From the NCBI RefSeq assembly GCF_000003605.2, contig NW_003113527.1:1-35419 (forward strand): a DNA stretch of 35,419 nucleotides, in the 5' to 3' direction. A program made the position numbers and the translations under genes. Below, one piece after another: positions 1-24,389 of the stretch. The stretch comes from Saccoglossus kowalevskii. Taxonomy: Eukaryota > Hemichordata > Enteropneusta > Harrimaniidae. Position 1 is the first letter of the stretch, and each line of letters opens with the position of its first letter. The notes under the pieces were generated by a model that ran no database searches, was not told the DNA's origin, and worked only from the letters and a program-made list of their open reading frames with translations.

Positions 1-618
1 TGCACTGGTTGCTGTGGCTGGTATTCCTGTTGTCAACAATATTATCCGTATGCCTGTATTTGCAATTGGTGAGCCCATTAGTCTAACCTGCAGTCTGTCA
101 TTAGCTGTTGCTGCCCTCCGACCATGTCCCACTTTTTTGGTGACTTCATAAAGCAGTAATTTTTTGCAGGTATAACCACACATTTGACACATCAAGCCCG
201 CAGTTACACAAATTCCCCATTTCTGAATGTCATACCACTGCAAGTCACCTGTGCACAAGGTTGTTGAATAACTCGCATGTTGTTTTATTGCTTTGTTTCA
301 CAGACTTGATGTTTTCTCCATGTCAAGCATCCTGTATCCTGTCGGTACTTTGGTCGGAGACTGCAAATATTCATCAATCGTCTGAGGTGTCCTTTCTATT
401 CAGGGTCTCGGCAAATGTACTTTTTCCGCAGTTGATATTTCACCACTGGATCCTGCCTTTGTTACTTCGTCATACATGTCCCTGGATAACCGCTGATATG
501 ATGAACCAGGTAGGTTCACACCTGTGGTCATCTTTTCTATTGCTAAACCTCTATTCCAGACAACAGATCCTTTCTGGAACTTGGACTCACAGATATTACT
601 TTTCTTGCTGCATGCCAT
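1..618 (-). pseudogene. Transposase copy T0, N-terminal part only, B-type sequence
   Basis: This is the N-terminal third of the Mutator-like transposase, cut by the left window edge. The expected ATG (MACSKK...) is at 618 and the FQKGxVxWNRG motif follows it. Two in-frame TGA codons interrupt it: at 298-300, where other copies have the Trp codon of SSLWNK, and at 400-402, where other copies have Arg in LRPRT. Up to about 570 the sequence belongs to a diverged B type shared with parts of T6 and T9. Further right it matches the common type. It cannot encode a full protein. Confidence 0.85.
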
Positions 619-1273
619 GACTTGTTTTCTTTTGAGTTCCAACAAAGTTGTGATAACTGCTCTCAAATGTACTGCATGTATGCCTATATATTGGGTGTTA
701 ACCAACCACCCCAATACTGGAGTATACCAATTATGGTCAGGCTTGCTCAGAATGCAGTTTTATGTCTCATGGTCACTGACAGCCTTCTGACATCACAGGA
801 AAGACAGTGAACCCATATTTGGGCCTGTGACCAATTAAAGCAAGGATAAACATTTACATTAGGATATACAATGTTGACAGATTTGATTTATTGATCTCCA
901 GAGATCTGACCAAAATGTTAAAATTTCATTAAATTCAGTGTACCATTTTGAAAAAAAAATTAAAAATACAAGCAGTGACCAAAGTTGGTATATTCTTTTA
1001 TGGGATGGTTGTTTGTATAACACTCTTTTATTTTATTAATTAAAAACACCCTTTCCTGTTCAGAATTTTAGGTACAAGGACACTTGGCCAGATGGTAAAT
1101 CTCTTCACTTGGGGCTGTAGTATGTGAAATGTATAGCGCCACCATGAGTCCAACTTTCCTACATATCTCCGAATTCTGTGAATTTGCATAAATTTTAATT
1201 ATCAAGAGTTGATCACCTGAAGTTGTTCTATCACCCACAGGAGGGATGAGCAAATTATCTAACCTTATTTCTC
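619..1273. other. Non-coding spacer upstream of T0, unit 1
   Basis: This AT-rich stretch lies between the transposase start and the embedded TIR element. I see no gene in it. Just before the TIR element it lacks a CTT triplet that the other units have (AACCTTATTT instead of AACCTTCTTATTT). The spacer entry at 4398 gives the details common to all units. Confidence 0.6.
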
Positions 1274-1277
1274 TGAA

Positions 1278-1739
1278 GGTCTCATGCCACTAATTAACCA
1301 ATGGCTGCTCGTAGCCCTCAATTTAAATGCCTAGCAGGAACCAATGAAATTTTTTTAATATTATTTTTCTCAGGTGTTCCCTGTTTGAGGGCGCGATCAC
1401 CTGGGTCAGAGGTGAGACTAACATGTGGTCTTTTGTTTACTACTTAGCGGCTGTGTACCTGTGGGATTATTCCGTGTGTATTTGGATGTTCTAATCTTGG
1501 TGTTTTTTCCCAGTGATTTCTCTAGGTGCAGTCCAAATACAGTAGGTGTGTCTTGTTTACCTGAGTTTTGCAAGAGTTTGAGCTGGCCAACATGTGTGTT
1601 TTTTTCATGTGGTTGATTACAGGCATGTTGATTTCCCATTTTAGAGCTATGTTTTCAACTTTGTTTATTATTTTCATATAGTAATCTCGTCATATGTTAA
1701 CATTGTCGTCTATGGAGTTTCAATTAGTGGTATGAGCCC
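1278..1739. mobile_element. Embedded TIR element (MITE-like), unit 1
   Basis: This 462-bp non-coding segment begins GGTCTCATGCCACTAATT and ends with the inverse of GGGCTCATACCACTAATT, giving 18-bp terminal inverted repeats with two mismatches. TGAA flanks it on both sides (1274-1277 and 1740-1743). Units 8 and 9 lack exactly this segment and keep one TGAA, so these are true insertion boundaries. No transposase is encoded inside. The superfamily is uncertain: a 4-bp target duplication fits several DNA transposon groups. Confidence 0.8.
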
Positions 1740-1867
1740 TGAACCAATATTTGATGTGGAACCACCTGCTTGACTTATATCTCTCCAAAATTTGTAATTT
1801 TAGTTGGAATTGAAACTTTTTTGGTTGAAATAATATTTAGTAATTTGTGATTTATTTTTACAATATT

Positions 1868-1892
1868 TGACCTCATTTGACCCCATTGACCT
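1868..1892. promoter_or_regulatory. Three TGACCT-type half-sites upstream of the HE start
   Basis: TGACCT, TGACCC and TGACCT lie in the same orientation with 4-bp and 3-bp gaps, ending 9 bp before the HE ATG. On the other strand they read as AGGTCA/GGGTCA, which is the nuclear-receptor half-site in DR3 and DR4 spacing. The same block is found at 5646, 9424, 13195, 17002, 21209, 24983, 28281, 31576 and 35318, including the diverged right-edge unit. Regulatory function is inferred from the motif alone. Confidence 0.3.
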
Positions 1893-1901
1893 CTATTAAT
1901 C

Positions 1902-2276
1902 ATGGATGACATTTGGCGAAAGCACTATTCTGACAAAGTTAATTTGAACTCTAGGCCAGTTGAAAACTTATTGGGCTGCATCATTTGGAGAGGGTATATA
2001 AAATCAAGCAGGGGGACACAATATGGCACCATAAGAGTGAGATTTCTTGGCTCTAGAAAGTGGAGCACTGTGCATGTCCACAGACTACAATACATGCTGT
2101 ACCACAAGACATTTGCTGTCGGTGGGAGAGATGTATCACATCTGTATCACAATAGTCTGTGCGTGGCCCCAACTCACATCTCACTGGAACCCCGAGGGGT
2201 TAACAATAGTCAAAAATTTTGCCATGGCAACCAGAGGTGCATTGGGCACAATCCATACCCACCATGTATTTTATAA
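1902..2276 (+). CDS. HE1: I-PpoI-like His-Cys box (His-Me finger) endonuclease
   Basis: The 124-residue protein should be a small, zinc-structured DNA endonuclease of the I-PpoI (His-Me finger) type. Residues 41-68 hold the beta-rich region that contacts DNA in I-PpoI. The active-site block follows: SHLYHN at 79-84 with presumed catalytic His80, then Cys87, His92, Glu96, Asn101 (Mg ligand, matching I-PpoI Asn119), and a second zinc cluster Cys107, Cys113, His116, Cys122. Cys26 matches I-PpoI zinc ligand Cys41. The ligand equivalent to Cys100 is Tyr82 here. The protein stops right after the last cysteine, so it lacks the C-terminal arm that I-PpoI uses for dimerisation. Specific to this copy are P49L and R104Q. 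The ATG at 1902 is the first in frame. Family assignment is from motif recognition and activity is unknown. Confidence 0.8.
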   Translation: MDDIWRKHYSDKVNLNSRPVENLLGCIIWRGYIKSSRGTQYGTIRVRFLGSRKWSTVHVHRLQYMLYHKTFAVGGRDVSHLYHNSLCVAPTHISLEPRGVNNSQKFCHGNQRCIGHNPYPPCIL

Positions 2277-2293
2277 AAACAAATAGTGGTGGA

Positions 2294-2305
2294 GGGGGGG
2301 GGGGG
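2294..2305 (+). repeat. Poly-G tract followed by TTTC-rich pyrimidine stretch
   Basis: A run of 12 G lies 17 bp after the HE stop codon and is followed by TTCTTTCTTTC-like sequence. The run varies from 9 to 13 G between units (13 in unit 2, 9 in units 3 and 8), as expected of slippage. It separates the two convergent genes. Confidence 0.8.
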
Positions 2306-2388
2306 TATTCATTCTTTCTTTCTTTCACTCACTCTGTCCATTCATCTCGCTTTCAAATATGACAATATCTGTGCTCTGATAACTGCAT

Positions 2389-2394
2389 TTTATT
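2389..2394 (-). terminator. Candidate polyadenylation signal for the transposase
   Basis: On the minus strand this reads AATAAA, about 55 bp past the T1 stop codon, and it is present in the same place in all units. In copies with an 8-T run the extended reading frame ends within this same stretch. I see no canonical AATAAA for the HE on the plus strand. Confidence 0.4.
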
Positions 2395-2410
2395 TTTTCA
2401 TGGTCTTGCT

Positions 2411-2469
2411 GTAAGTATGGTCAATTATTTTACATTTCTCAGTTAATTTATATTGATTTTTTTTTACAG
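2411..2469 (+). other. Candidate 59-bp plus-strand intron
   Basis: GTAAGT, a strong 5' splice site, is followed 59 bp later by a T-run and ACAG, a strong 3' splice site. It lies downstream of the HE stop and would be in a 3' untranslated region. The minus strand of the same stretch also reads GT...ACTTACAG, so an intron at the transposase 3' end is equally possible. There is no transcript evidence. Confidence 0.25.
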
Positions 2470-4397
2470 GACTGTACATTTAAATACATTCCTTTAACAT
2501 AAGTATTTTGTTTTTCTGAGTTCTTTACTTTATCGTATAAATCAAATCTTGCTTTTCTGAGTTTTCCTCTATTTATTTTAAATTTTTTAGATTTCTGTCT
2601 TTTTGCATGTCTCTCATTGTTAATTTGTTCTCGCTCTAATGACTTAATTAAATTTTTGTCCTTGGCCAACGGGGCGCCAATAGCCTCACATTTTTTAAGT
2701 ACAGAATTTGCACTTCCAGTGTTCAGATCAAGAATAGCACTATTAATTCTAGGTGAAAAATTTCTACTCCAAGTAATGCTCCTTGGATTTGTTTTTGAAT
2801 AACTACAGTGCACAGCTTCAGTTTTTTGTGTGCTTGTCATAAATTTTGTTTTTTCTAGTGCACTTGGACCAAGTCGCATCCAAATTATTCCCCGTAATTG
2901 TTCTTTGTCTGTCTCAGACATATTCAGTTCAGTGTCAAGCGGTAAAAATGATTTGTTCCATTTATTGCGTTTCCTACCTGTGCAAACAAATGAATATTTT
3001 CTGCACATTTCTCCACAGTTCCCACTATAACATTCAACGATGGCATCAACAGTGAATGATAATTTTTTTTTTATAATTTCCAGACATCCGCAATACTGCT
3101 TGAAAGCCTTTGTGTGTTCTGTATTGCATCTGGCAACCAGATCATAGGCAAAGCGATTTTTAAGTTTATCCTTAAATGCTCTTGTCTTCCCAGGAAACAT
3201 AGTAGCAGAGAAGGCGGTATTGCCTATTTTTTTCTTCATTCCACCACACAGGTGTCTAATGTCTATCAGGTGATCAACCGGTTCATGCTGTGTCATTTCA
3301 ATGCCATGGTGACCTTTACTGTCCCCATTGGAAGTGAAATGGCTGACAGTAAATTTCTGTCCCTCCATGCATTTCATGGATGCACTGCGTTCATCTCCAA
3401 TAGTGGCACCTGGTTGGATGTTGGCACTGCAGTGTCCATCATGTTCTGGGCAGTTGACAATTAATCCCTTATTCCGTTGCCTTTCAGCAGTCTTGCAAAG
3501 TTTGTTCCCAGTGTAGACTGACAGTATCTTTTTCTTTGCCGTGACATTTTCACAGATGGTATAGGTCATTTGTGTTGCAGGCTGAAATGGAGTTTTGCCG
3601 GGATGCACTCCACAGTGGGTTATTGTAGCGCGCATCATCTTTCCACTGGTAGTGCAGTATCCCGCAGTGGCACCACGAAGGTGTTTTACTGAATTAACAT
3701 GATCCAGTTGTGCTGCCATATCTTCCTTGTTCAGTTTCACTATGGCCTGTCCAATTTTATTGGCACACTTCTGCATGCCACTGGTGGCTGGGGCTGGTAT
3801 TCCAGTTGTCAACAATATTTTCCGTATGCCTGTATTTGCAATTGGTGAGCCCATTAGTCCAACCTGCAGTCTGTCATTAGCTGTTGCTGCCTTCCGACCA
3901 GGTCCCGCTTTTTTGGAGACTTCATAAAGCGGTACTTTTTTGCAGGTATAACCACACATTTGACACATCAAGCCCGCAGTTACACAAATTCCCCATTTCT
4001 GAATGTCATTCCACTGCAAGTCACCTGTGCACAAGGTTGTTGAATTACTCACGTGTTCTTTTATTGCTTTGTTCCAGAGACTTGATGTTTTCTCCATGTC
4101 AAGCATCCTGTATCCTGTCGGTACTTTGGTCGAAAACTGCAAATATTCATCAATCGTCTGAGGTGTCCCTACTGTTCTGGGTCTCAGCAAATGTACTTTT
4201 TCCGCAGTTGTTGATATTTTACCACTGGGTCCTGCCTTTGTTACTTCGTCATACATGTCCCTGGATAGCCGTTGATACGATGAACCAGGTAAGTTCACAC
4301 CTGTGGTCACCTTTTCTATTGCTAAACCTCTATTCCAGGCAACAGATCCTTTCTGGAACTTGGACTCACAGATATTACTCTTCTTGCTGCATGCCAT
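2448..4397 (-). CDS. T1: Mutator-like DDE transposase, open frame but damaged core
   Basis: This 649-residue frame starts at the ATG at 4397 (MACSKK); the frame is open for 37 more codons upstream but has no earlier ATG. I read it as the eukaryotic Mutator-like transposase group (the Pfam Mutator-like transposase domain). Visible parts are an N-terminal FQKGSVAWNRGL motif (14-25), a Cys cluster CxxCGYxC (145-152), a DGDSK motif near 357, a Cys-rich middle (CRKYSFVC), a TEAV motif with candidate catalytic Glu527, and a basic tail. In other copies a DARYNN motif near residue 254 could supply the first Asp. T1 has three separate 1-bp insertions around 3600-3665 that cancel in sum but replace about 30 residues, including DARYNN, and its DGDSK reads NGDSK. 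Despite being the longest frame it is probably inactive. The catalytic assignment is inferred. Confidence 0.7.
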   Translation of the reverse strand: MACSKKSNICESKFQKGSVAWNRGLAIEKVTTGVNLPGSSYQRLSRDMYDEVTKAGPSGKISTTAEKVHLLRPRTVGTPQTIDEYLQFSTKVPTGYRMLDMEKTSSLWNKAIKEHVSNSTTLCTGDLQWNDIQKWGICVTAGLMCQMCGYTCKKVPLYEVSKKAGPGRKAATANDRLQVGLMGSPIANTGIRKILLTTGIPAPATSGMQKCANKIGQAIVKLNKEDMAAQLDHVNSVKHLRGATAGYCTTSGKMMRATITHCGVHPGKTPFQPATQMTYTICENVTAKKKILSVYTGNKLCKTAERQRNKGLIVNCPEHDGHCSANIQPGATIGDERSASMKCMEGQKFTVSHFTSNGDSKGHHGIEMTQHEPVDHLIDIRHLCGGMKKKIGNTAFSATMFPGKTRAFKDKLKNRFAYDLVARCNTEHTKAFKQYCGCLEIIKKKLSFTVDAIVECYSGNCGEMCRKYSFVCTGRKRNKWNKSFLPLDTELNMSETDKEQLRGIIWMRLGPSALEKTKFMTSTQKTEAVHCSYSKTNPRSITWSRNFSPRINSAILDLNTGSANSVLKKCEAIGAPLAKDKNLIKSLEREQINNERHAKRQKSKKFKINRGKLRKARFDLYDKVKNSEKQNTYVKGMYLNVQSCKKKSI

Positions 4398-5053
4398 GAC
4401 TTGTTTTCTTTTGAGTTCCAACAAAGTTGTGATAACTGCTCTCAAATGTACTGCATGTATGCCTATATATTGGGTGTTAACCAACCACCCAATACTGGAG
4501 TATACCAATTATGGTCAGGCTTGCTCAGAATGCAGTTTTATGTCTCATGGTCACTGACAGCCTTCTGACATCACAGGAAAGACAGTGAACCCATATTTGG
4601 GCCTGTGACCAATTAAAGCAAGGATAAACATTTACATTAGGATATACAATGTTGACAGATTTGATTTATTGATCTCCAGAGATCTGACCAAAATGTTAAA
4701 ATTTCATTAAATTCAGTGTACCATTTTGAAAAAAAAATTAAAAATACAAGCAGTGACCAAAGTTGGTATATTCTTTTATGGATGGTTGTTTGTATAACAC
4801 TCTTTTATTTTATTAATTAAAAACACCCTTTCCTGTTCAGAATTTTAGGTACAAGGACACTTGGCCAGATGGTAAATCTCTTCACTTGGGGCTGTAGTAT
4901 GTGAAATGTATAGCGCCACCATGAGTCCAACTTTCCTACATATCTCCGAATTCTGTGAATTTGCATAAATTTTAATTATCAAGAGTTGATCACCTGAAGT
5001 TGTTCTATCACCCACAGGAGGGATGAGCAAATTATCTAACCTTCTTATTTCTC
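4398..5053. other. Conserved non-coding spacer between transposase start and TIR element (representative, unit 2)
   Basis: About 655 bp of AT-rich sequence with no convincing gene. It contains a palindrome GATCTCCAGAGATC (4671-4684), an A-run, a TTAATTAAAA stretch, a conserved GCGCCACCATGAG (ATG at 4921, frame of only 15 residues), and a minus-strand open frame at 4845-5030 that begins with TTG, not ATG. It probably carries the transposase promoter, but I see no clear TATA box at a suitable distance. Matching spacers are at 619-1273, 8175-8831, 11947-12603, 15749-16405, 19515-20171, 23727-24385, 27496-28152, 30791-31447 and 34079-34737. Confidence 0.6.
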
Positions 5054-5057
5054 TGAA

Positions 5058-5517
5058 GGTCTCATGCCTCTAATTAACCAATGGCTGCTCGTAGCCCTCA
5101 ATTTAAATGCCTAGCAGGAACCAATGAAATTTTTTTAATATTATTTTTCTCAGGTGTTCCCTGTTTGAGGGCGCGATCACCTGGGTCAGAGGTGAGACTA
5201 ACATGTGGTCTTTTGTTTACTACTTAGCGGCTGTGTACCTGTGGGATTATTCCGTGTGTATTTGGATGTTCTAATCTTGGTGTTTTCCCAGTGATTTCTC
5301 TAGGTGCAGTCCAAATACAGTAGGTGTGTCTTGTTTACCTGAGTTTTGCAAGAGTTTGAGCTGGCCAACATGTGTGTTTTTTTCATGTGGTTGATTACAG
5401 GCATGTTGATTTCCCATTTTAGAGCTATGTTTTCAACTTTGTTTATTATTTTCATATAGTAATCTCGTCATATGTTAACATTGTCGTCTATGGAGTTTCA
5501 ATTAGTGGTATGAGCCC
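5058..5517. mobile_element. Embedded TIR element, unit 2
   Basis: The element is 460 bp, flanked by TGAA at 5054-5057 and 5518-5521. Its left TIR has one extra mismatch (GCCTCTAATT). Inside are two CCAAT boxes 43 bp apart (5078-5082 and 5121-5125), which could supply promoter function to a neighbouring gene, and a foldable stretch at 5151-5183. Confidence 0.8.
5151..5183 (+). other. Conserved hairpin inside the TIR element
   Basis: CAGGTG (5151-5156) pairs with CACCTG (5178-5183), and inside it CCCT (5159-5162) pairs with AGGG (5168-5171) around a GTTTG loop. It recurs in the TIR element of every unit that has one; unit 4 has lost one C of the inner stem, and the right-edge unit has GACGG in place of GAGGG. 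Function is unknown and the pairing is short. Confidence 0.3.
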
Positions 5518-5679
5518 TGAACCAATATTTGATGTGGAACCACCTGCTTGACTTATATCTCTCCCAAATTTGTAATTTTAGTTGGAATTGAAACTTTTTT
5601 GGTTGAAATAATATTTAATAATTTGTGATTTATTTTTACAATATTTGACCTCATTTGACCCCATTGACCTCTATTAATC

Positions 5680-6054
5680 ATGGATGACATTTGGCGAAAG
5701 CACTATTCTGACAAAGTTAATTTGAACTCTATGCCAGCTGAAAACTTATTGGGCTGCATCATTTGGAGAGGGTATATAAAATCAAGCAGGGGGACACAAT
5801 ATGGCACCATAAGAGTGAGATTTCCTGGCTCTAGAAAGTGGAGCACTGTGCATGTCCACAGACTACAATACATGCTGTACCACAAGACATTTGCTGTCGG
5901 TGGGAGAGATGTATCACATCTGTATCACAATAGCCTGTGCATGGCCTCAACTCACATCTCACTGGAACCCCGATGGGTTAACAATAGTCGAAAATTTTGC
6001 CATGGCAACCAGAGGTGCATTGGGCACAATCCATACCCACCATGTATTTTATAA
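5680..6054 (+). CDS. HE2: I-PpoI-like His-Cys box endonuclease, most substituted copy
   Basis: The frame is open over all 124 codons, with catalytic His80, Asn101 and the second zinc cluster (Cys107, Cys113, His116, Cys122) present. This copy has the most private amino-acid changes: R18M, V20A, V88M, P90S and G99W. The last three lie between the zinc ligands of the active-site loop. Tyr82 stands where I-PpoI has a zinc-binding Cys. The concentration of radical changes in the active-site region suggests loss of constraint. Confidence 0.75.
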   Translation: MDDIWRKHYSDKVNLNSMPAENLLGCIIWRGYIKSSRGTQYGTIRVRFPGSRKWSTVHVHRLQYMLYHKTFAVGGRDVSHLYHNSLCMASTHISLEPRWVNNSRKFCHGNQRCIGHNPYPPCIL

Positions 6055-6165
6055 AAACAAATAGTGGTGGGGGGGGGGGGGTATTCATTCTTTCTTTCTT
6101 TCACTCACTCTGTCCATTCATCTCGCTTTCAAATATGACAATATCTGTGCTCTGATAACTGCATT

Positions 6166-8174
6166 TTATTTTTTCATGGTCTTGCTGTAAGTATGGTCAA
6201 TTATTTTACATTTCTCAGTTAATTTATATTGATTTTTTTTACAGGACTGTACATTTAAATACATTCCTTTAACATAAGTATTTTGTTTTTCTGAGTTCTT
6301 TACTTTATCGTATAAATCAAATCTTGCTTTTCTGAGTTTTCCTCTATTTATTTTAAATTTTTTAGATTTCTGTCTTTTTGCATGTCTCTCATTGTTAATT
6401 TGTTCTCGCTCTAATGACTTAATTAAATTTTTGTCCTTGGCCAACGGGGCGCCAATAGCCTCACATTTTTTAAGTACAGAATTTGCACTTCCAGTGTTCA
6501 GATCATGAATAGCACTATGAATTCTAGGTGAAAAATTTCTACTCCAAGTAATGCTCCTTGGATTTGTTTTTGAATAACTACAGTGCACAGCTTCAGTTTT
6601 TTGTGTGCTTGTCATAAATTTTGTTTTTTCTAGTGCACTTGGACCAAGTCGCATCCAAATTATTCCCCGTAATTGTTGTTTGTCTGTCTCAGACATATTC
6701 AGTTCAGTGTCAAGCGGTAAAAATGATTTGTTCCATTTATTGCGTTTCCTACCTGTGCAAACAAATGAATATTTTCTGCACATTTCTCCACAGTTTCCAC
6801 TATAACATTCAACGATGGCATCAACAGTGAATGATAATTTATTTTTTATAATTTCCAGACATCCGCAATACTGCTTGAAAGCCTTTGTGTGTTCTGTATT
6901 GCATCTGGCAACCAGATCATAGGCAAAGCGATTTTTAAGTTTATCCTTAGATGCTCCTGTCTTCCCAGGAAACATAGTAGCAGAGAAGGCGGTATTGCCT
7001 ATTTTTTTCTTCATTCCACCACACAGGTGTCTAATGTCTATCAGGTGATCAACCGGTTCATGCTGTGTCATTTCAATGCCATGGTGACCTTTACTGTCCC
7101 CATCGGAAGTGAAATGGCTGACAGTAAATTTCTGTCCCTCCATGCATTTCATGGATGCACTGCGTTCATCTCCAATAGTGGCACCTGGTTGGATGTTGGC
7201 ACTGCAGTGTCCATCATGTTCTGGGCAGTTGACAATTAATCCCTTATTCCGTTGCCTTTCAGCAGTCTTGCAAAGTTTGTTCCCAGTGTAGACTGACAGT
7301 ATCTTTTTCTTTGCCGTGACATTCTCACAGATGGTATACATGTAGGTCATTTGTGTTGCAGGCTGAAATGGAGTTTTGCCGGATGCACTCCACAGTGGGT
7401 TATTGTAGCGCGCATCACCTTCCACTGGTAGTGCAGTATCCGCAGTGGCACCACGAAGGTGTTTTACTGAATTAACATGATCCAGTTGTGCTGCCATATC
7501 TTCCTTGTTCAGTTTCACTATGGCCTATCCAATGTTATTGGCACACTTCTGCATGCCACTGGTGGCTGGGGCTGGTATTCCAGTTGTCAACAATATTTTC
7601 CGTATGCCTGTATTTGCAATTGGTGAGCCCATTAGTCCAACCTGCAGTCTGTCATTAGCTGTTGCTGCCTTCCGACCAGGTCCCACTTTTTTGGAGACTT
7701 CATAAAGCGGTACTTTTTTGCAGGTATAACCACACATTTGACACATCAAGCCCGCAGTTACACAAATTCCCCATTTCTGAATGTCATTCCACTGCAAGTC
7801 ACCTGTGCACAAGGTTGTTGAATTACTCACGTGTTCTTTTATTGCTTTGTTCCAGAGACTTGATGTTTTCTCCATGTCAAGCATCCTGTATCCTGTCGGT
7901 ACTTTGGTCGAAAACTGCAAATATTCATCAATCGTCTGAGGTGTCCCTACTGTTCTGGGTCTCAGCAAATGTACTTTTTCCGCAGTTGTTGATATTTCAC
8001 CACTGGGTCCTGCCTTTGTTACTTCGTCATACATGTCCCTGGATAGCCGCTGATATGATGAACCAGGTAAGTTCACACTGTGGTCACCTTTTCTATTGCT
8101 AAACCTCTATTCCAGGCAACAGATCCTTTCTGGAACTTGGACTCACAGATATTACTCTTCTTGCTGCATGCCAT
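6166..8174 (-). pseudogene. T2: Mutator-like transposase, frameshift and nonsense
   Basis: The ATG is at 8174. A 1-bp deletion near 8077 (CACACTGTGG instead of CACACCTGTGG) shifts the frame after about 30 residues, and a TAG at 7525-7527 replaces the Gln of GQAIVK. The rest, 6166-7518, is open, with the DARYNN and DGDSK motifs intact and a 6-bp insertion near 7340 that adds two residues. The T-run near the end has 8 T, so the frame reads through to a longer C-terminus (ending TMKK) instead of stopping at KKKSI as in T1. Confidence 0.8.
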
Positions 8175-8835
8175 GACTTGTTTTCTTTTGAGTTCCAACA
8201 AAGTTGTGATAACTGCTCTCAAATGTACTGCATGTATGCCTATATATTGGGTGTTAACCAACCACCCAATACTGGAGTATACCAATTATGGTCAGGCTTG
8301 CTCAGAATGCAGTTTTATGTCTCATGGTCACTGACAGCCTTCTGACATCACAGGAAAGACAGTGAACCCATATTTGGGCCTGTGACCAATTAAAGCAAGG
8401 ATAAACATTTACATTAGGATATACAATGTTGACAGATTTGATTTATTGATCTCCAGAGATCTGACCAAAATGTTAAAATTTCATTAAATTCAGTGTACCA
8501 TTTTGAAAAAAAAATTAAAAATACAAGCAGTGACCAAAGTTGGTATATTCTTTTATGGGATGGTTGTTTGTATAACACTCTTTTATTTTATTAATTAAAA
8601 ACACCCTTTCCTGTTCAGAATTTTAGGTACAAGGACACTTGCCCAGATGGTAAATCTCTTCACTTGGGGCTGTAGTATGTGAAATGTATAGCGTCACCAT
8701 GAGTCCAACTTTCCTACATATCTCCGAATTCTGTGAATTTGCATAAATTTTAATTATCAAGAGTTGATCACCTGAAGTTGTTCTATCACCCACAGGAGGG
8801 ATGAGCAAATTATCTAACCTTCTTATTTCTCTGAA

Positions 8836-9295
8836 GGTCTCATGCCACTAATTAACCAATGGCTGCTCGTAGCCCTCAATTTAAATGCCTAGCAGGAACC
8901 AATGAAATTTTTTTAATATTATTTTTCTCAGGTGTTCCCTGTTTGAGGGCGCGATCACCTGGGTCAGAGGTGAGACTAACATGTGGTCTTTTGTTTACTA
9001 CTTAGCGGCTGTGTACCTGTGGGATTATTCCGTGTGTATTTGGATGTTCTAATCTTGGTGTTTTCCCAGTGATTTCTCTAGGTGCAGTCCAAATACAGTA
9101 GGTGTGTCTTGTTTACCTGAGTTTTGCAAGAGTTTGAGCTGGCCAACATGTGTGTTTTTTTCATGTGGTTGATTACAGGCATGTTGATTTCCCATTTTAG
9201 AGCTATGTTTTCAACTTTGTTTATTATTTTCATATAGTAATCTCGTCATATGTTAACATTGTCGTCTATGGAGTTTCAATTAGTGGTATGAGCCC
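8836..9295. mobile_element. Embedded TIR element, unit 3
   Basis: 460 bp, flanked by TGAA at 8832-8835 and 9296-9299. The TIRs are of the common type. After the right TGAA this unit reads TCAATATT where the others read CCAATATT. Confidence 0.8.
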
Positions 9296-9457
9296 TGAAT
9301 CAATATTTGATGTGGAACCACCTGCTTGACTTATATCTCTCCCAAATTTGTAATTTTAGTTGGAATTGAAACTTTTTTGGTTGAAATAATATTTAATAAT
9401 TTGTGATTTATTTTTACAATATTTGACCTCATTTGACCCCATTGACCTCTATTAATC

Positions 9458-9832
9458 ATGGATGACATTTGGCGAAAGCACTATTCTGACAAAGTTAATT
9501 TGAACTCTAGGCCAGTTGAAAACTTATTGGGCTGCATCATTTGGAGAGGGTATATAAAATCAAGCAGGGGGACACAATATGGCACCATAAGAGTGAGATT
9601 TCCTGGCTCTAGAAAGTGGAGCACTGTGCATGTCCACAGACTACAATACATGCTGTACCACAAGACATTTGCTGTCGGTGGGAGAGATGTATCACATCTG
9701 TATCACAATAGCCTGTGCGTGGCCCCAACTCACATCTCACTGGAACCCCGAGGGGTTAACAATAGTCGAAAATTTTGCCATGGCAACCAGAGGTGCATTG
9801 GGCACAATCCATACCCACCATGTATTTTATAA
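9458..9832 (+). CDS. HE3: I-PpoI-like His-Cys box endonuclease, array-consensus copy
   Basis: This copy equals the array consensus at every position where I could compare. It has all expected metal and catalytic residues (Cys26, His80, Cys87, His92, Asn101, Cys107, Cys113, His116, Cys122) except that position 82 is Tyr. It is the best reference for the family sequence in this window. Whether it can cleave depends on how well the first zinc site tolerates Tyr82. Confidence 0.8.
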   Translation: MDDIWRKHYSDKVNLNSRPVENLLGCIIWRGYIKSSRGTQYGTIRVRFPGSRKWSTVHVHRLQYMLYHKTFAVGGRDVSHLYHNSLCVAPTHISLEPRGVNNSRKFCHGNQRCIGHNPYPPCIL

Positions 9833-10000
9833 AAACAAATAGTGGTGGAGGGGGGGGGTATTCATTCTTTCTTTCTTTCACTCACTCTGTCCATTCATCT
9901 CGCTTTCAAATATGACAATATCTGTGCTCTGATAACTGCATTTTATTTTTTCATGGTCTTGCTGTAAGTATGGTCAATTATTTTACATTTCTCAGTTAAT

Positions 10001-11946
10001 TTATATTGATTTTTTTTTACAGGACTGTACATTTAAATACATTCCTTTAACATAAGTATTTTGTTTTTCTGAGTTCTTTACTTTATCGTATAAATCAAAT
10101 CTTGCTTTTCTGAGTTTTCCTCTATTTATTTTAAATTTTTAGATTTCTGTCTTTTGCATGTCTCTCATTGTTAATTTGTTCTCGCTCTAATGACTTAATT
10201 AAATTTTTGTCCTTGGCCAACGGGGCGCCAATAGCGTCACATTTTTTAAGTACAGAATTTGCACTTCCAGTGTTCAGATCATGAATAGCACTATGAATTC
10301 TAGGTGAAAAATTTCTACTCCAAGTAATGCTCCTTGGATTTGTTTTTGAATAACTACAGTGCACAGCTTCAGTTTTTTGTGTGCTTGTCATAAATTTTGT
10401 TTTTTCTAGTGCACTTGGACCAAGTCGCATCCAAATTATTCCCCGTAATTGTTCTTTGTCTGTCTCAGACATATTCAGTTCAGTGTCAAGCGGTAAAAAT
10501 GATTTGTTCCATTTATTGCGTTTCCTACCTGTGCAAACAAATGAATATTTTCTGCACATTTCTCCACAGTTCCCACTATAACATTCAACGATGGCATCAA
10601 CAGTGAATGATAATTTATTTTTTATAATTTCCAGACATCCGCAATACTGCTTGAAAGCCTTTGTGTGTTCTGTATTGCATCTGGCAACCAGATCATAGGC
10701 AAAGCGATTTTTAAGTTTATCCTTAGATGCTCTTGTCTTCCCAGGAAACATAGTAGCAGAGAAGGCAGTATTGCCTATTTTTTTCTTCATTCCACCACAC
10801 AGGTGTCTAATGTCTATCAGGTGATCAACCGGTTCATGCTGTGTCATTTCAATGCCATGGTGACCTTTACTGTCCCCATCGGAAGTGAAATGGCTGACAG
10901 TAAATTTCTGTCCCTCCATGCATTTCATGGATGCACTGCGTTCATCTCCAATAGTGGCACCTGGTTGGATGTTGGCACTGCAGTGTCCATCATGTTCTGG
11001 GCAGTTGACAATTAATCCCTTATTCCGTTGCCTTTCAGCAGTCTTGCAAAGTTTGTTCCCAGTGTAGACTGACAGTATCTTTTTCTTTGCCGTGACATTC
11101 TCACAGATGGTATAGGTCATTTGTGTTGCAGGCTGAAATGGAGTTTTGCCGGATGCACTCCACAGTGGGTTATTGTAGCGCGCATCACCTTCCACTGGTA
11201 GTGCAGTATCCGGCAGTGGCACCACGAAGGTGTTTTACTGAATTAACATGATCCAGTTGTGCTGCCATATCTTCCTTGTTCAGTTTCACTATGGCCTGTC
11301 CAATTTTATTGGCACACTTCTGCATGCCACTGGTGGCTGGGGCTGGTATTCCAGTTGTCAACAATATTTTCCGTATGCCTGTATTTGCAATTGGTGAGCC
11401 CATTAGTCCAACCTGCAGTCTGTCATTAGCTGTTGCTGCCTTCCGACCAGGTCCCGCTTTTTTGGAGACTTCATAAAGCGGTACTTTTTTGCAGGTATAA
11501 CCACACATTTGACACATCAAGCCCGCAGTTACACAAATTCCCCATTTCTGAATGTCATTCCACTGCAAGTCACCTGTGCACAAGGTTGTTGAATTACTCA
11601 CGTGTTCTTTTATTGCTTTGTTCCAGAGACTTGATGTTTTCTCCATGTCAAGCATCCTGTATCCTGTCGGTACTTTGGTCGAAAACTGCAAATATTCATC
11701 AATCGTCTGAGGTGTCCCTACTGTTCTGGGTCTCAGCAAATGTACTTTTTCCGCAGTTGTTGATATTTCACCACTGGGTCCTGCCTTTGTTACTTCGTCA
11801 TACATGTCCCTGGATAGCCGCTGATATGATGAACCAGGTAAGTTCACACCTGTGGTCACCTTTTCTATTGCTAAACCTCTATTCCAGGCAACAGATCCTT
11901 TCTGGAACTTGGACTCACAGATATTACTCTTCTTGCTGCATGCCAT
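10001..11946 (-). pseudogene. T3: Mutator-like transposase, two frameshifts
   Basis: The ATG is at 11946. The N-terminal frame is intact to a 1-bp insertion near 11212 (CCGGCAG instead of CCGCAG), which ends it at GYCTTSGR just before DARYNN. The following frame, down to about 10131, has intact DARYNN, DGDSK and TEAV motifs. A 1-bp deletion near 10150 then removes the basic tail. With only two single-base lesions it is among the least damaged copies. Confidence 0.8.
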
Positions 11947-12607
11947 GACTTGTTTTCTTTTGAGTTCCAACAAAGTTGTGATAACTGCTCTCAAATGTAC
12001 TGCATGTATGCCTATATATTGGGTGTTAACCAACCACCCAATACTGGAGTATACCAATTATGGTCAGGCTTGCTCAGAATGCAGTTTTATGTCTCATGGT
12101 CACTGACAGCCTTCTGACATCACAGGAAAGACAGTGAACCCATATTTGGGCCTGTGACCAATTAAAGCAAGGATAAACATTTACATTAGGATATACAATG
12201 TTGACAGATTTGATTTATTGATCTCCAGAGATCTGACCAAAATGTTAAAATTTCATTAAATTCAGTGTACCATGTTGAAAAAAAAATTAAAAATACAAGC
12301 AGTGACCAAAGTTGGTATATTCTTTTATGGGATGGTTGTTTGTATAACACTCTTTTATTTTATTAATTAAAAACACCCTTTCCTGTTCAGAATTTTAGGT
12401 ACAAGGACACTTGGCCAGATGGTAAATCTCTTCACTTGGGGCTGTAGTATGTGAAATGTATAGCGCCACCATGAGTCCAACTTTCCTACATATCTCCGAA
12501 TTCTGTGAATTTGCATAAATTTTAATTATCAAGAGTTGATCACCTGAAGTTGTTCTATCACCCACAGGAGGGATGAGCAAATTATCTAACCTTCTTATTT
12601 CTCTGAA

Positions 12608-13066
12608 GGTCTCATGCCACTAATTAACCAATGGCTGCTCGTAGCCCTCAATTTAAATGCGTAGCAGGAACCAATGAAATTTTTTTAATATTATTTTTCT
12701 CAGGTGTTCCTGTTTGAGGGCGCGATCACCTGGGTCAGAGGTGAGACTAACATGTGGTCTTTTGTTTACTACTTAGCGGCTGTGTACCTGTGGGATTATT
12801 CCGTGTGTATTTGGATGTTCTAATCTTGGTGTTTTCCCAGTGATTTCTCTAGGTGCAGTCCAAATACAGTAGGTGTGTCTTGTTTACCTGAGTTTTGCAA
12901 GAGTTTGAGCTGGCCAACATGTGTGTTTTTTTCATGTGGTTGATTACAGGCATGTTGATTTCCCATTTTAGAGCTATGTTTTCAACTTTGTTTATTATTT
13001 TCATATAGTAATCTCGTCATATGTTAACATTGTCGTCTATGGAGTTTCAATTAGTGGTATGAGCCC
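12608..13066. mobile_element. Embedded TIR element, unit 4
   Basis: 459 bp, flanked by TGAA at 12604-12607 and 13067-13070. It lacks one C in the inner stem of the hairpin (TTCCTGTTTGAGGG) and has GTAGCAGG in place of CTAGCAGG. Confidence 0.8.
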
Positions 13067-13228
13067 TGAACCAATATTTGATGTGGAACCACCTGCTTGA
13101 CTTATATCTTTCCCAAATTTGTAATTTTAGTTGGAATTGAAACTTTTTTGGTTGAAATAATATTTAATAATTTGTGATTTATTTTTACAATATTTGACCT
13201 CATTTGACCCCATTGACCTCTATTAGTC

Positions 13229-13603
13229 ATGGATGACATTTGGCGAAAGTACTATTCTGACAAAGTTAATTTGAACTCTAGGCCAGTTGAAAACTTATTG
13301 GGCTGCATCATTTGGAGAGGGTATATAAAATCAAGCAGGGGGACACAATATGGCACCATAAGAGTGAGATTTCCTGGCTCTAGAAAGTGGAGCACTGTGC
13401 ATGTCCACAGACTACAATACATGCTGTACCACAAGACATTTGCTGTCGGTGGGAGAGATGTATCACATCTGTGTCACAATAGCCTGTGCGTGGCCCCAAC
13501 TCACATCTCACTGGAACCCCGAGGGGTTAACAATAGTCGAAAATTTTGCCATGGCAACCAGAGGTGCATTGGGCACAATCCATACCCACCATGTATTTTA
13601 TAA
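13229..13603 (+). CDS. HE4: I-PpoI-like endonuclease with complete zinc-ligand set (Cys82)
   Basis: Here the active-site block reads SHLCHN, so position 82 is Cys and matches I-PpoI Cys100. With Cys26, Cys87 and His92 the first zinc site is complete, as is the second. Only HE4 and HE7 have this. The one other private change is H8Y, away from the active site. Among the copies shown it is the best candidate for an active enzyme. Confidence 0.82.
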   Translation: MDDIWRKYYSDKVNLNSRPVENLLGCIIWRGYIKSSRGTQYGTIRVRFPGSRKWSTVHVHRLQYMLYHKTFAVGGRDVSHLCHNSLCVAPTHISLEPRGVNNSRKFCHGNQRCIGHNPYPPCIL

Positions 13604-13716
13604 AAACAAATAGTGGTGGAGGGGGGGGGGGGTATTCATTCTTTCTTTCTTTCACTCACTCTGTCCATTCATCTCGCTTTCAAATATGACAATATCTGTG
13701 CTCTGATAACTGCATT

Positions 13717-15748
13717 TTATTTTTTCATGGTCTTGCTGTAAGTATGGTCAATTATTTTACATTTCTCAGTTAATTTATATTGATTTTTTTTACAGGACTG
13801 TACATTTAAATACATTCCTTTAACATAAGTATTTTGTTTTTCTGAGTTCTTTACTTTATCGTTATAAATACTTTATATATAAATACTTTATACTTTACTT
13901 TATCGTTATAATCGTTATAAATCAAATCTTGCTTTTCTGAGTTTTCCTCTATTTATTTTAAATTTTTTAGATTTCTGTCTTTTTGCATGTCTCTCATTGT
14001 TAATTTGTTCTCGCTCTAATGACTTAATTAAATTTTTGTCCTTGGCCAATAGCCTCACATTTTTTAAGTACAGAATTTGCACTTCCAGTGTTCAGATCAT
14101 GAATAGCACTATGAATTCTAGGTGAAAAATTTCTACTCCAAGTAATGCTCCTTGGATTTGTTTTTGAATAACTACAGTGCACAGCTTCAGTTTTTTGTGT
14201 GCTTGTCATAAATTTTGTTTTTTCTAGTGCACTTGGACCAAGTCGCATCCAAATTATTCCCCGTAACTGTTCTTTGTCTGTCTCAGACATATTCAGTTCA
14301 GTGTCAAGCGGTAAAAATGATTTGTTCCATTTATTGCGTTTCCTACCTGTGCAAACAAATGAATATTTTCTGCACATTTCTCCACAGTTCCCACTATAAC
14401 ATTCAACGATGGCATCAACAGTGAATGATAATTTATTTTTTATAATTTCCAGACATCCGCAATACTGCTTGAAAGCCTTTGTGTGTTCTGTATTGCATCT
14501 GGCAACCAGATCATAGGCAAAGCGATTTTTAAGTTTATCCTTAAATGCTCTTGTCTTCCCAGGAAACATAGTAGCAGAGAAGGCGGTATTGCCTATTTTT
14601 TTCTTCATTCCACCACACAGGTGTCTAATGTCTATCAGGTGATCAACCGGTTCATGCTGTGTCATTTCAATGCCATGGTGACCTTTACTGTCCCCATCGG
14701 AAGTGAAATGGCTGACAGTAAATTTCTGTCCCTCCATGCATTTCATGGATGCACTGCGTTCATCTCCAATAGTGGCACCTGGTTGGATGTTGGCACTGCA
14801 GTGTCCATCATGTTCTGGGCAGTTGACAATTAATCCCTTATTCCGTTGCCTTTCAGCAGTCTTGCAAAGTTTGTTCCCAGTGTAGACTGACAGTATCTTT
14901 TTCTTTGCCGTGACATTCTCACAGATGGTATAGGTCATTTGTGTTGCAGGCTGAAATGGAGTTTTGCCGGATGCACTCCACAGTGGGTTATTGTAGCGCG
15001 CATCACCTTCCACTGGTAGTGCAGTATCCGCAGTGGCACCACGAAAGGTGTTTTACTGAATTAACATGATCCAGTTGTGCTGCCATATCTTCCTTGTTCA
15101 GTTTCACTATGGCCTGTCCAAGTTTATTGGCACACTTCTGCATGCCACTGGTGGCTGGGGCTGGTATTCCAGTTGTCAACAATATTTTCCGTATGCCTGT
15201 ATTTGCAATTGGTGAGCCCATTAGTCCAACCTGCAGTCTGTCATTAGCTGTTGCTGCCTTCCGACCAGGTCCCGCTTTTTTGGAGACTTCATAAAGCGGT
15301 ACTTTTTTGCAGGTATAACCACACATTTGACACATCAAGCCCGCAGTTACACAAATTCCCCATTTCTGAATGTCATTCCACTGCAAGTCACCTGTGCACA
15401 AGGTTGTTGAATTACTCACATGTTCTTTTATTGCTTTGTTCCAGAGACTTGATGTTTTCTCCATGTCAAGCATCCTGTATCCTGTCGGTACTTTGGTCGA
15501 AAACTGCAAATATTCATCAATCGTCTGAGGTGTCCCTACTGTTCAGGGTCTCAGCAAATGTACTTTTTCCGCAGTTGTTGATATTTCACCACTGGGTCCT
15601 GCCTTTGTTACTTCGTCATACGCTGATATGATGAACCAGGTAAGTTCACACCTGTGGTCACCTTTTCTATTGCTAAACCTCTATTCCAGGCAACAGATCC
15701 TTTCTGGAACTTGGACTCACAGATATTACTCTTTTTGCTGCATGCCAT
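13717..15748 (-). pseudogene. T4: Mutator-like transposase, multiply broken
   Basis: The ATG is at 15748. Lesions in reading order are: a 16-bp deletion near 15620 (frameshift), TGA at 15543-15545, a 1-bp insertion near 15045, an 11-bp deletion near 14048 between short CCAA repeats, and about 54 bp of extra AT-rich sequence at 13861-13914. The segment 14024-15013 with DARYNN, DGDSK and TEAV is open. It shares Phe in RAFKDK with T1 alone. Confidence 0.85.
13861..13914. repeat. Local AT-rich tandem expansion in T4
   Basis: About 54 bp are added here compared with other units. The insert is built from repeated CTTTA(TA) and TATCGTTATAA pieces that copy the flanking CTTTACTTTATCGT. It looks like replication slippage, falls in the C-terminal coding part of the transposase and is found in no other unit. 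Confidence 0.7.
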
Positions 15749-16413
15749 GACTTGTTTTCTTTTGAGTTCCAACAAAGTTGTGATAACTGCTCTCAAATGT
15801 ACTGCATGTATGCCTATATATTGGGTGTTAACCAACCACCCAATACTGGAGTATACCAATTATGGTCAGGCTTGCTCAGAATGCAGTTTTATGTCTCATG
15901 GTCACTGACAGCCTTCTGACATCACAGGAAAGACAGTGAACCCATATTTGGGCCTGTGACCAATTAAAGCAAGGATAAACATTTACATTAGGATATACAA
16001 TGTTGACAGATTTGATTTATTGATCTCAAGAGATCTGACCAAAATGTTAAAATTTCATTAAATTCAGTGTACCATTTTGAAAAAAAAATTAAAAATACAA
16101 GCAGTGACCAAAGTTGGTATATTCTTTTATGGGATGGTTGTTTGTATAACACTCTTTTATTTTATTAATTAAAAACACCCTTTCCTGTTCAGAATTTTAG
16201 GTACAAGGACACTTGGCCAGATGGTAAATCTCTTCACTTGGGGCTGTAGTATGTGAAATGTATAGCGCCACCATGAGTCCAACTTTCCTACATATCTCCG
16301 AATTCTGTGAATTTGCATAAATTTTAATTATCAAGAGTTGATCACCTGAAGTTGTTCTATCACCCACAGGAGGGATGAGCAAATTATCTAACCTTCTTAT
16401 TTCTCTGAATTCA

Positions 16414-16873
16414 GGTCTCATGCCACTAATTAACCAATGGCTGCTCGTAGCCCTCAATTTAAATGCCTAGCAGGAACCAATGAAATTTTTTTAATATTAT
16501 TTTTCTCAGGTGTTCCCTGTTTGAGGGCGCGATCACCTGGGTCAGAGGTGAGACTAACATGTGGTCTTTTGTTTACTACTTAGCGGCTGTGTACCTGTGG
16601 GATTATTCCGTGTGTATTTGGATGTTCTAATCTTGGTGTTTTCCCAGTGATTTCTCTAGGTGCAGTCCAAATACAGTAGGTGTGTCTTGTTTACCTGAGT
16701 TTTGCAAGAGTTTGAGCTGGCCAACATGTGTGTTTTTTTCATGTGGTTGATTACAGGCATGTTGATTTCCCATTTTAGAGCTATGTTTTCAACTTTGTTT
16801 ATTATTTTCATATAGTAATCTCGTCATATGTTAACATTGTCGTCTATGGAGTTTCAATTAGTGGTATGAGCCC
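16414..16873. mobile_element. Embedded TIR element, unit 5, with 4-bp insertion at its left junction
   Basis: 460 bp with common-type TIRs. On the left, TGAA (16406-16409) is followed by an extra TTCA (16410-16413) before GGTCTC, making the palindrome TGAATTCA. On the right TGAA follows directly (16874-16877). No other unit has extra bases at this junction. Confidence 0.8.
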
Positions 16874-17035
16874 TGAACCAATATTTGATGTGGAACCACC
16901 TGCTTGACTTATATCTCTCCCAAATTTGTAATTTTAGTTGGAATTGAAACTTTTTTGGTTGAAATAATATTTAATAATTTGTGATTTATTTTTACAATAT
17001 TTGACCTCATTTGACCCCACTGACCTCTATTAATC

Positions 17036-17409
17036 ATGGATGACATTTGGCGAAAGCACTATTCTGACAAAGTTAATTTGAACTCTAGGCCAGTGAAAAC
17101 TTATTGGGCTGCATCATTTGGAGAGGGTATATAAAATCAAGCAGGGGGACACAATATGGCACCATAAGAGTGAGATTTCCTGGCTCTAGAAAGTGGAGCA
17201 CTGTGCATGTCCACAGACTACAATACATGCTGTACCACAAGACATTTGCTGTCGGTGGGAGAGATGTATCACATCTGTATCACAATAGTCTGTGCGTGGC
17301 CCCAACTCACATCTCACTGGAACCCCGAGGGGTTAACAATAGTCGAAAATTTTGCCATGGCAACCAGAGGTGCATTGGGCACAATCCATACCCACCATGT
17401 ATTTTATAA
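17036..17409 (+). pseudogene. HE5: frameshifted endonuclease copy
   Basis: One T is missing near 17094 (CCAGTGAAAAC instead of CCAGTTGAAAAC), which shifts the frame at about residue 20. Downstream the original frame continues intact to the normal stop, including the active-site loop with Tyr82. An internal start is unlikely, because the first in-frame ATG after the lesion lies beyond the N-terminal strands. This is the only broken HE among the nine complete units. Confidence 0.88.
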
Positions 17410-17579
17410 AAACAAATAGTGGTGGAGGGGGGGGGGGTATTCATTCTTTCTTTCTTTCACTCACTCTGTCCATTCATCTCGCTTTCAAATATGACAATAT
17501 CTGTGCTCTGATAACTGCATTTTATTTTTTCATGGTCTTGCTGTAAGTATGGTCAATTATTTTACATTTCTCAGTTAAT

Positions 17580-19514
17580 TTATATTGATTTTTTTTTACA
17601 GGACTGTACATTTAAATACATTCCTTTAACATAAGTATTTTGTTTTTCTGAGTTCTTTACTTTATCGTATAAATCAAATCTTGCTTTTCTGAGTTTTCCT
17701 CTATTTATTTTAAATTTTTTAGATTTCTGTCTTTTTGCATGTCTCTCATTGTTCTCGCTCTAATGACTTAATTAAATTTTTGTCCTTGGCCAACGGGGCG
17801 TCAATAGCCTCACATTTTTTAAGTACAGAATTTGCACTTCCAGTGTTCAGATCATGAATAGCACTATGAATTCTAGGTGAAAAATTTCTACTCCAAGTAA
17901 TGCTCCTTGGATTTGTTTTGAATAACTACAGTGCACAGCTTCAGTTTTTTGTGTGCTGTCATAAATTTTGTTTTTTCTAGTGCACTTGGACCAAGTCGCA
18001 TCCAAATTATTCCCCGTAATTGTTGTTTGTCTGTCTCAGACATATTCAGTTCAGTGTCAAGCGGTAAAAATGATTTGTTCCATTTATTGCGTTTCCTACC
18101 TGTGCAAACAAATGAATATTTTCTGCACGTTTCTCCACAGTTCCCACTATAACATTCAACGATGGCATCAACAGTGAATGATAATTTATTTTTTATAATT
18201 TCCAGACATCCGCAATACTGCTTGAAAGCCTTTGTGTGTTCTGTATTGCATCTGGCAACCAGATCATAGGCAAAGCGATTTTTAAGTTTATCCTTATATC
18301 TTTATCTTCCCAGGAAACATAGTAGCAGAGAAGGCGGTATTGCCTATTTTTTTCTTCATTCCACCACACAGGTGTCTAATGTCTATCAGGTGATCAACCG
18401 GTTCATGCTGTGTCATTTCAATGCCATGGTGACCTTTACTGTCCCCATCGGAAGTGAAATGGCTGACAGTAAATTTCTGTCCCTCCATGCATTTCATGGA
18501 TGCACTGCGTTCATCTCCAATAGTGGCACCTGGTTGGATGTTGGCACTGCAGTGTCCATCATGTTCTGGGCAGTTGACAATTAATCCCTTATTCCGTTGC
18601 CTTTCAGCAGTCTTGCAAAGTTTGTTCCCAGTGTAGACTGACAGTATCTTTTTCTTTGCCGTGACATTCTCACAGATGGTATAGGTAATTTGTGTTGCAG
18701 GCTGAAATGGAGTTTTGCCGGATGCACTCCACAGTGGGTTATTATAGCGCGCATCACCTTCCACTGGTAGTGCAGTATCCGCAGTGGCACCACGAAGGTG
18801 TTTTACTGAATTAACATGATCCAGTTGTGCTGCCATATCTTCCTTGTTCAGTTTCACTATGGCCTGTCCAATGTTATTGGCACACTTCTGCATGCCACTG
18901 GTGGCTGGGGCTGGTATTCCAGTTGTCAACAATATTTTCCGTATGCCTGTATTTGCAATTGGTGAGCCCATTAGTCCAACCTGCAGTCTGTCATTAGCTG
19001 TTGCTGCCTTCCGACCAGGTCCCGCTTTTTTGGAGACTTCATAAAGCGGTACTTTTTTGCAGGTATAACCACACATTTGACACATCAAGCCCGCAGTTAC
19101 ACAAATTCCCCATTTCTGAATGTCATTCCACTGCAAGTCACCTGTGCACAAGGTTGTTGAATTACTCACGTGTTCTTTTATTGCTTTGTTCTAGAGACTT
19201 GATGTTTTCTCCATGTCAAGCATCCTGTATCCTGTCGGTACTTTGGTCGAAAACTGCAAATATTCATCAATCGTCTGAGGTGTCCCTACTGTTCTGGGTC
19301 TCAGCAAATGTACTTTTTCCGCAGTTGTTGATATTTCACCACTGGGTCCTGCCTTTGTTACTTCGTCATACATGTCCCTGGATAGCCGCTGATATGATGA
19401 ACCAGGTAAGTTCACACCTGTGGTCACCTTTTCTATTGCTAAACCTCTATTCCAGGCAACAGATCCTTTCTGGAACTTGGACTCACAGATATTACTCTTC
19501 TTGCTGCATGCCAT
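17580..19514 (-). pseudogene. T5: Mutator-like transposase, nonsense and several deletions
   Basis: The ATG is at 19514. TAG at 19191-19193 replaces the Trp codon of SSLWNK. The next stretch is open down to about 18294 and includes DARYNN and DGDSK; a net 2-bp loss near 18300 then shifts the frame. Two 1-bp deletions (near 17920 and 17957) and an 8-bp deletion near 17752 follow. The 8-bp deletion and a neighbouring GCGTC variant are shared only with T8. Confidence 0.85.
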
Positions 19515-20591: not shown

Positions 20592-20888
20592 AGTAATCAA
20601 GGCAGACATACCAATCCAAAAACCCCATTAGAAAATAGAATTTGTAAACAATGCCCATTACAGGAGATCGAAGACGAATTACACTTTCTTTTAGTTTGCC
20701 CACGATATCAAACAGATAGAAATGATTTTATTTCCAATATTTTATTTCCCAAAGAAATCATTACCAACCTGCAAAAATTCACATATTTAATGAAAAGTAA
20801 TGACAGAAATATAATAAAACTTTTAGGGGAATTTTTGCATAAATCATTTATTTTAAGAAATGAGCTTTTTTTGGATATAATACCTTGA
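20592..20888 (+). pseudogene. C-terminal fragment of a LINE reverse-transcriptase ORF
   Basis: 98 codons are open from the insertion edge to a TGA at 20886-20888, with no start codon. The fragment has the Cys-His motif found near the C-terminus of many animal LINE polymerase ORFs: CxxC, then EDELHFLLVCPRY and an Arg three residues later. It holds neither reverse transcriptase nor endonuclease core motifs, as expected of 5' truncation. Confidence 0.8.
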
Positions 20889-20998
20889 CTCTTTTTTTTC
20901 TATTTTTTACGTTATCGTACTTTGATTTTTTTTTTAATCACTTATATATTTATTGCTGTAAACCAATAGAACATTTGTAATTCTAAGGATGCAATAAA

Positions 20999-20999
<1 letters not shown>

Positions 21000-24385: not shown

Positions 24386-24389
24386 TGAA

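Follow-up and report, generated by a model that had tools for sequence, protein, structure and literature searches.

A tandem array of convergent I-PpoI-like endonuclease and transposase genes in Saccoglossus kowalevskii, very probably a decayed KolobokP multimer

An array of two convergent genes

We analyzed contig NW_003113527.1 (C739) of the hemichordate Saccoglossus kowalevskii (assembly GCF_000003605.2). The window, meaning the whole stretch of DNA studied, is this entire contig, 35,419 bp in length. It consists of a head-to-tail array of about 9.4 units, which we argue below very probably derives from a KolobokP-type DNA transposon. The unit, of ~3,775 bp (3.78 kb), contains convergent genes for an I-PpoI-like endonuclease and a DDE transposase. 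There are nine full units, with a partial unit ahead of unit 1 and the beginning of another at the array end (Table 1). Counted from the endonuclease ATG (or its equivalent), the units start at 1902, 5680, 9458, 13229, 17036, 21243, 25017, 28315 and 31610. Identity to unit 1 is 95.5–99.2%, pairwise divergence among units is 0.4–3.4%, and individual units have indels of their own, of various lengths up to 214 bp. The amplification of an endonuclease–transposase pair, proposed in a preliminary description of this DNA, is thus borne out and spans the whole window. Rfam at gathering thresholds gave no match in the window, and an NCBIfam scan gave a single, irrelevant sub-threshold row.

Table 1. 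Features of the array in window coordinates. LTDR, long terminal direct repeat; INT, internal region.
Feature	Coordinates	Strand	Remarks
Very probable KolobokP multimer, (LTDR-INT)n	1..35419		~9.4 units, no host flanks
INT, unit 1	1741..5056		unit cited in the preliminary description
LTDR	1277..1740	+	between partial unit 0 and unit 1
LTDR	5057..5518	+	462 bp, AGGTCTCATGCC...GGTATGAGCCCT; inverted ends 18/21; common left-end form
LTDR	8835..9296	+	
LTDR	12607..13067	+	
LTDR	16413..16874	+	4-bp insertion exactly at left edge
LTDR	20175..21081	+	broken by ~445-bp insertion
LTDR	24389..24850	+	
INT-INT junction	28148..28160		LTDR missing, 464 bp gone, TTTCTCTGAACCAAT left
INT-INT junction, second	31443..31455		same TTTCTCTGAACCAAT sequence
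LTDR	34741..35211	+	diverged copy; left junction CTCTTAAGGT
I-PpoI-like His-Cys box (His-Me finger) endonuclease ORF, unit 1	1902..2276	+	124 aa; Tyr for one zinc-ligand Cys
Endonuclease ORF, unit 2	5680..6054	+	
Endonuclease ORF, unit 3	9458..9832	+	
Endonuclease ORF, unit 4	13229..13603	+	SHLCHN form
Endonuclease gene, unit 5	17036..17409	+	frameshifted by 1-bp deletion
Endonuclease ORF, unit 6	21243..21617	+	Arg at I-PpoI H110 position
Endonuclease ORF, unit 7	25017..25391	+	SHLCHN form
Endonuclease ORF, unit 8	28315..28689	+	
Endonuclease ORF, unit 9	31610..31984	+	
Kolobok-type DDE transposase gene, unit 1	2448..4397	-	three compensating 1-bp insertions; DARYNN out of frame
Transposase core (PF20700), unit 2	6778..7890	-	one in-frame stop
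Transposase core, unit 3	10554..11661	-	frameshifted
Transposase core, unit 4	14372..15479	-	frameshifted
Transposase core, unit 5	18336..19229	-	one in-frame stop, frameshifted
Transposase core, unit 6	22342..23444	-	frameshifted
Transposase core, unit 7	26221..27210	-	frameshifted downstream
Transposase core, unit 8	29405..30505	-	one in-frame stop
Transposase core, unit 9	32709..33796	-	frameshifted

The endonuclease resembles I-PpoI

The plus-strand ORF at 1902–2276 (124 codons) matched Pfam PF05551, the zinc-binding loop region of homing endonucleases (1.6e-10). A PDB search with a single endonuclease sequence gave no match. A profile made from seven endonucleases of the same genome matched five distinct PDB sequences to E = 1 (best 4.9e-6), and I-PpoI entries were the sole solved relatives among them. 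Six-frame translation revealed the motif SHLxHN in all nine full units. The pattern SHLxHN..C..P.H aligns with SHLCHN..C..P.H of I-PpoI, the His-Cys box homing endonuclease of Physarum polycephalum, as do Asn101 and the His-Me motif. These data agree with the preliminary description, which had recognized a compact His-Cys box endonuclease with SHLxHN and Asn101. Unlike I-PpoI, which has 163 residues and is encoded in a group I intron, the protein has 124 and its gene lies in a transposon.

The two zinc clusters that had also been reported hold for few copies. In seven of the nine units the motif reads SHLYHN: Tyr occupies a zinc-ligand position that is Cys in I-PpoI as well as in a second endonuclease family from this genome; the Cys form (SHLCHN) is limited to the copies at 13229 and 25017. 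The copy at 21243 (unit 6) has Arg in place of the His at the I-PpoI H110 position, and that at 17036 (unit 5) has lost its frame. His-Cys box enzymes use His and Asn for catalysis and bind zinc through eight His/Cys ligands; here the catalytic motif is present and the ligands are damaged in most copies. Distinct changes within the array number 14 nonsynonymous and one synonymous, small numbers from which we do not claim positive selection.

The transposase has Kolobok signatures and is intact in no unit

The convergent minus-strand ORF of unit 1 (2448–4508, 686 aa) matched Pfam PF20700, 'Mutator-like transposase' (9.3e-41). The motifs previously noted for a transposase of about 650 residues recur in the full units by six-frame translation (DARYNN in 8/9, DGDSK in 8/9, TEAV in 9/9), yet none of the nine copies is intact, as each has frameshifting indels. 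In unit 1, on which that description was based, the 686-aa frame is open only via three 1-bp insertions summing to three, DARYNN falls outside it, and NGDSK stands in place of DGDSK. In the other full units such indels split the gene into shorter ORFs, and 214 bp are deleted from the partial first copy. Across the array the transposase shows 86 distinct nonsynonymous changes to 44 synonymous, with 9 stops.

Kolobok transposases are characterized by DxxH, a zinc finger between the second D and E, and CCHC after the first D, according to PMC9587614. We found all three in the single-frame cores of units 2 and 8, in which GDARYNN, a C..CPEHDGHC zinc motif, DGDSK, DIRH (the DxxH motif), a C-x4-C-x3-C-x6-C cluster and TEAV are recognizable by eye. 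A PDB search with the transposase gave two argininosuccinate lyase rows at chance level, which we rejected.

A terminal direct repeat is found in the unit and as solo copies

The unit also includes an LTDR of 461–462 bp, absent from the preliminary description. Its ends, AGGTCTCATGCCACTAATTAA and, on the other strand, AGGGCTCATACCACTAATTGA, form an inverted match of 18/21 bp. Depending on where the end is placed, the termini read AG..CC or AG..CT and fit the pattern 5'-RR and YY-3'. Units 7 and 8 are without 464 bp seen in the other units, and the missing segment is the LTDR. At both of the INT-INT junctions left behind, the flanking bases remain just once, the outcome that excision would give. 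These two clean losses reflect either two excisions or one excision followed by duplication. Another LTDR is interrupted by an insertion of ~445 bp (20591–21036), which ends in a (TTA)n run and, by eye, resembles a LINE 3' terminus.

We searched the 572-Mb assembly (4,830 contigs) for further copies. Of 451 candidates picked up at first look, 40 were scored, and at least 41 LTDR matches were listed: 9 rows within the window, 32 elsewhere. Thirty rows came with loci, and 22 of these loci lay outside the window. Five of the 22 were dropped (three inside a multimer on contig C917, one at a multimer end, one truncated), giving a sample of 17 solo LTDRs. Fourteen have a 3-bp target duplication, compared with 1.75 expected from mismatched pairs, if the final base of the LTDR is assigned to the flank. 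Counting further LTDR end bases, 15 of the 17 show an exact duplication of 4–7 bp, none reaching 8 bp. The ~3-bp duplications vary in sequence and are not the TTAA of canonical Kolobok.

Related loci occur elsewhere in the genome

On C917, the LTDR is present at 93% identity in three places around an internal region of ~1.64 kb (first 8,700 of 17,157 bp). Within those 8,700 bp, blastn gave no match between this internal region and the window INT beyond the LTDR edges, and tblastn detected neither protein. An INT-INT junction, TTTCTCTGAAGTAAC, occurs here as well. C917 is a second multimer that has the LTDR in common with the window, and a nonautonomous-looking partner.

Our searches located eight further endonuclease loci outside the window. 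Those on C1794, C379, C2121 and C1938 are decayed copies of the window-type endonuclease beside convergent remnants of the same transposase (>90% identical by tblastn for C1794). The pair is therefore adjacent outside the array too, at four of the eight loci. The other four (C1204, L010:4582-4947; C3439, L011:2927-3298; C151, L012:4710-5075; C3365, remnant L029) represent the second endonuclease family, ~35% identical to the window endonuclease and of the SHLCH form. This family is full length and nearly identical in three contigs of ~11.4–11.9 kb (C1204, C3439, C151). Rfam, at its gathering thresholds, gave no match in the stretches used from three contigs carrying this family. Its ~600-bp block recurs, decayed, in C3365 near a helicase-like fragment (a sub-threshold DEAD match). 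SET-domain exon-like ORFs are present on C1204 (L010:914-1186 and L060:3260-3847).

Other PF20700 transposases include C809:54949-56005, whose best E is 4.9e-67 and whose open frames measure 277 and 487 aa, and C1243:2641-3465, with an open frame of 595 aa; the endonuclease searches, which do miss some loci, gave no row on either contig. Endonuclease pattern searches gave no match in a viral contig collection and five matching stretches, none a relative, in prokaryote/virus genome contigs, as expected for viral and prokaryotic collections.

The array is assigned to KolobokP

KolobokP was named by Kojima and Bao (2022, Mobile DNA 13:24; PMC9587614). That paper describes elements with a Kolobok transposase and an I-PpoI-like nuclease on opposite strands, placed between LTDRs and often multimerised. 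The LTDR is ~450 or ~660 bp and has its own inverted ends, with 5'-RR and YY-3'. Target duplications are 3–4 or 4–5 bp by family, TTAA is not required, and inverted ends reach 18 bp. The set comprises 228 families, and autonomous families of oyster are 4,022–4,748 bp. A literature search on the name KolobokP, across 5.39 million papers, found none besides this one; PMC12750733 refers to it in connection with bivalve Kolobok-like sequences that lie in tandem.

The window and its relatives in the genome match this description in most respects. The two genes and their relative orientation are the same. The LTDR falls in the ~450-bp class, and its short inverted ends fit 5'-RR and YY-3'. Multimers of the form (LTDR-INT)n contain INT-INT junctions, and both solo LTDRs and nonautonomous-looking relatives occur. 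A monomer would measure ~462 + 3,316 + 462 = 4,240 bp, within the oyster autonomous range. Points of difference are that the array is long (nine full units) and decayed, that 3-bp duplications fit best, rather than 3–4 or 4–5 by family, and that the inverted ends span 21 bp with 3 mismatches, as opposed to a published maximum of 18 bp. We conclude from these sequence features that the window is almost certainly the decayed, multimerised form of a KolobokP-type DNA transposon residing in a large nuclear genome. The preliminary description knew of no element with such a composition. The pairing is real but not new: KolobokP, with the same genes, orientation, LTDR and multimers, is a lineage already described in 2022, so an element that seemed new from sequence alone belongs with it. 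What the window adds is a long multimer with two clean LTDR-loss junctions, along with a nonautonomous-looking partner.

Pfam, like the preliminary description, calls the transposase Mutator-like, and the array might on that ground be a new composite element, a MuDR/Mutator superfamily transposon that independently captured an I-PpoI-like endonuclease. MuDR-type target duplications are 8–11 bp. Yet the 17 solo LTDRs include no exact duplication of 8–12 bp, and one of the 17 has a duplication of 8 or 9 bp if up to two mismatches are allowed. Moreover, published KolobokP is matched in gene order and zinc motifs, in the LTDR with its inverted ends, and in the 3-bp duplications, making such a capture very improbable. 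The Mutator label is correct as the Pfam name of the domain, whereas the ends and duplications, and the published classification of this element type, are those of KolobokP and Kolobok.

A host-maintained satellite or multigene array, with a useful endonuclease and the transposase as a passenger, would account for an endonuclease frame that is full length in eight of nine full units beside a transposase intact in none. But the endonuclease gene is ~5 times shorter and therefore expected to gather fewer disabling changes; the gene is simply short, and its surviving frame does not point to selection within the array. The ratio of 14 nonsynonymous to 1 synonymous changes gives no sign of purifying selection, and a zinc-ligand Cys is lost in seven of nine copies. 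Already disfavoured, this explanation has a slim chance of being right. That the tandem structure is an artefact of assembly or sequencing (collapsed rolling-circle or chimeric reads), as a contig holding the array only might suggest, is the least credible alternative given the divergence among units, their private indels, the ~445-bp insertion in one LTDR, the comparable multimer on C917 and the published multimers (PMC9587614).

Several points nonetheless count against the KolobokP assignment. It was made by comparing gene content, LTDR anatomy and motifs with the published description. C739 has no flanking host DNA, and the multimer's own ends and target duplication are not visible. Two of the 17 solo LTDRs (L044 and L047) have no duplication in any register tested, and AlphaFold gave no usable model of the endonuclease (mean pLDDT 37). 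The four second-family loci had no significant transposase match in the stretches compared (all of C1204, 9,900 of 11,951 bp of C3439, 7,065 of 11,364 bp of C151 and ~3.1 kb of C3365). None of these contigs is among the 50 PF20700 matches listed genome-wide, but this is weak evidence, because C1794, with a certain transposase remnant, is missing there too.

A model for mobility and growth of the array

The mobile unit of KolobokP would be LTDR-INT-LTDR, about 4.2 kb. Movement may depend on the transposase acting at the LTDR's short inverted ends; either the whole element or a lone LTDR would then be cut out and inserted with a duplication of ~3 bp, in keeping with the anatomy described above. 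Recombination between neighbouring copies at their direct LTDRs could enlarge the array through unequal crossover. In a published hypothesis (PMC9587614), the I-PpoI-like endonuclease probably promotes such growth by cutting in the LTDR or at its edge. This role in multimerisation is putative, and the impaired look of most copies here speaks against it. As the proteins of the array are mostly defective, its recent growth and homogenisation probably reflect host recombination between near-identical repeats or an activity supplied in trans.

A possible I-PpoI-like site at the INT-LTDR junction

We compared the unit with the I-PpoI 15-mer. The INT-LTDR junction, TTCTCTGAAGGTCTC, matches it at 11 of 15 positions, joint best in the 3.78-kb unit; the tied site lies within the endonuclease gene. 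In unit 9, the most diverged copy, the junction TTCTCTTAAGGTCTC matches at 12 of 15. Permuted sites did as well near LTDR edges in 24 of 2000 cases for 11/15 and 2 of 2000 for 12/15. This comparison was post hoc and is a weak lead. CTCTGA occupies seven of eight LTDR left edges in the window and two of three C917 junctions, and because it predominates in both, the CTCTTA form, which is closer to the I-PpoI site, is probably derived. It is conceivable, though doubtful, that the KolobokP endonuclease cuts at the INT-LTDR junction, in a site that derives from the I-PpoI rDNA target or is similar to it. If so, the element would carry its own homing site at every repeat boundary, driving its own tandem amplification, and the target of the endonuclease would be directly testable.

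Small insertions are found exactly at this LTDR edge in two places. In unit 4, ATTC is inserted at the left edge (16409–16412), and in C1794 (L013:4175-4186) CTCTTAATA replaces CTCTGA. Each is a possible scar of break and repair; they could equally be transposase footprints.

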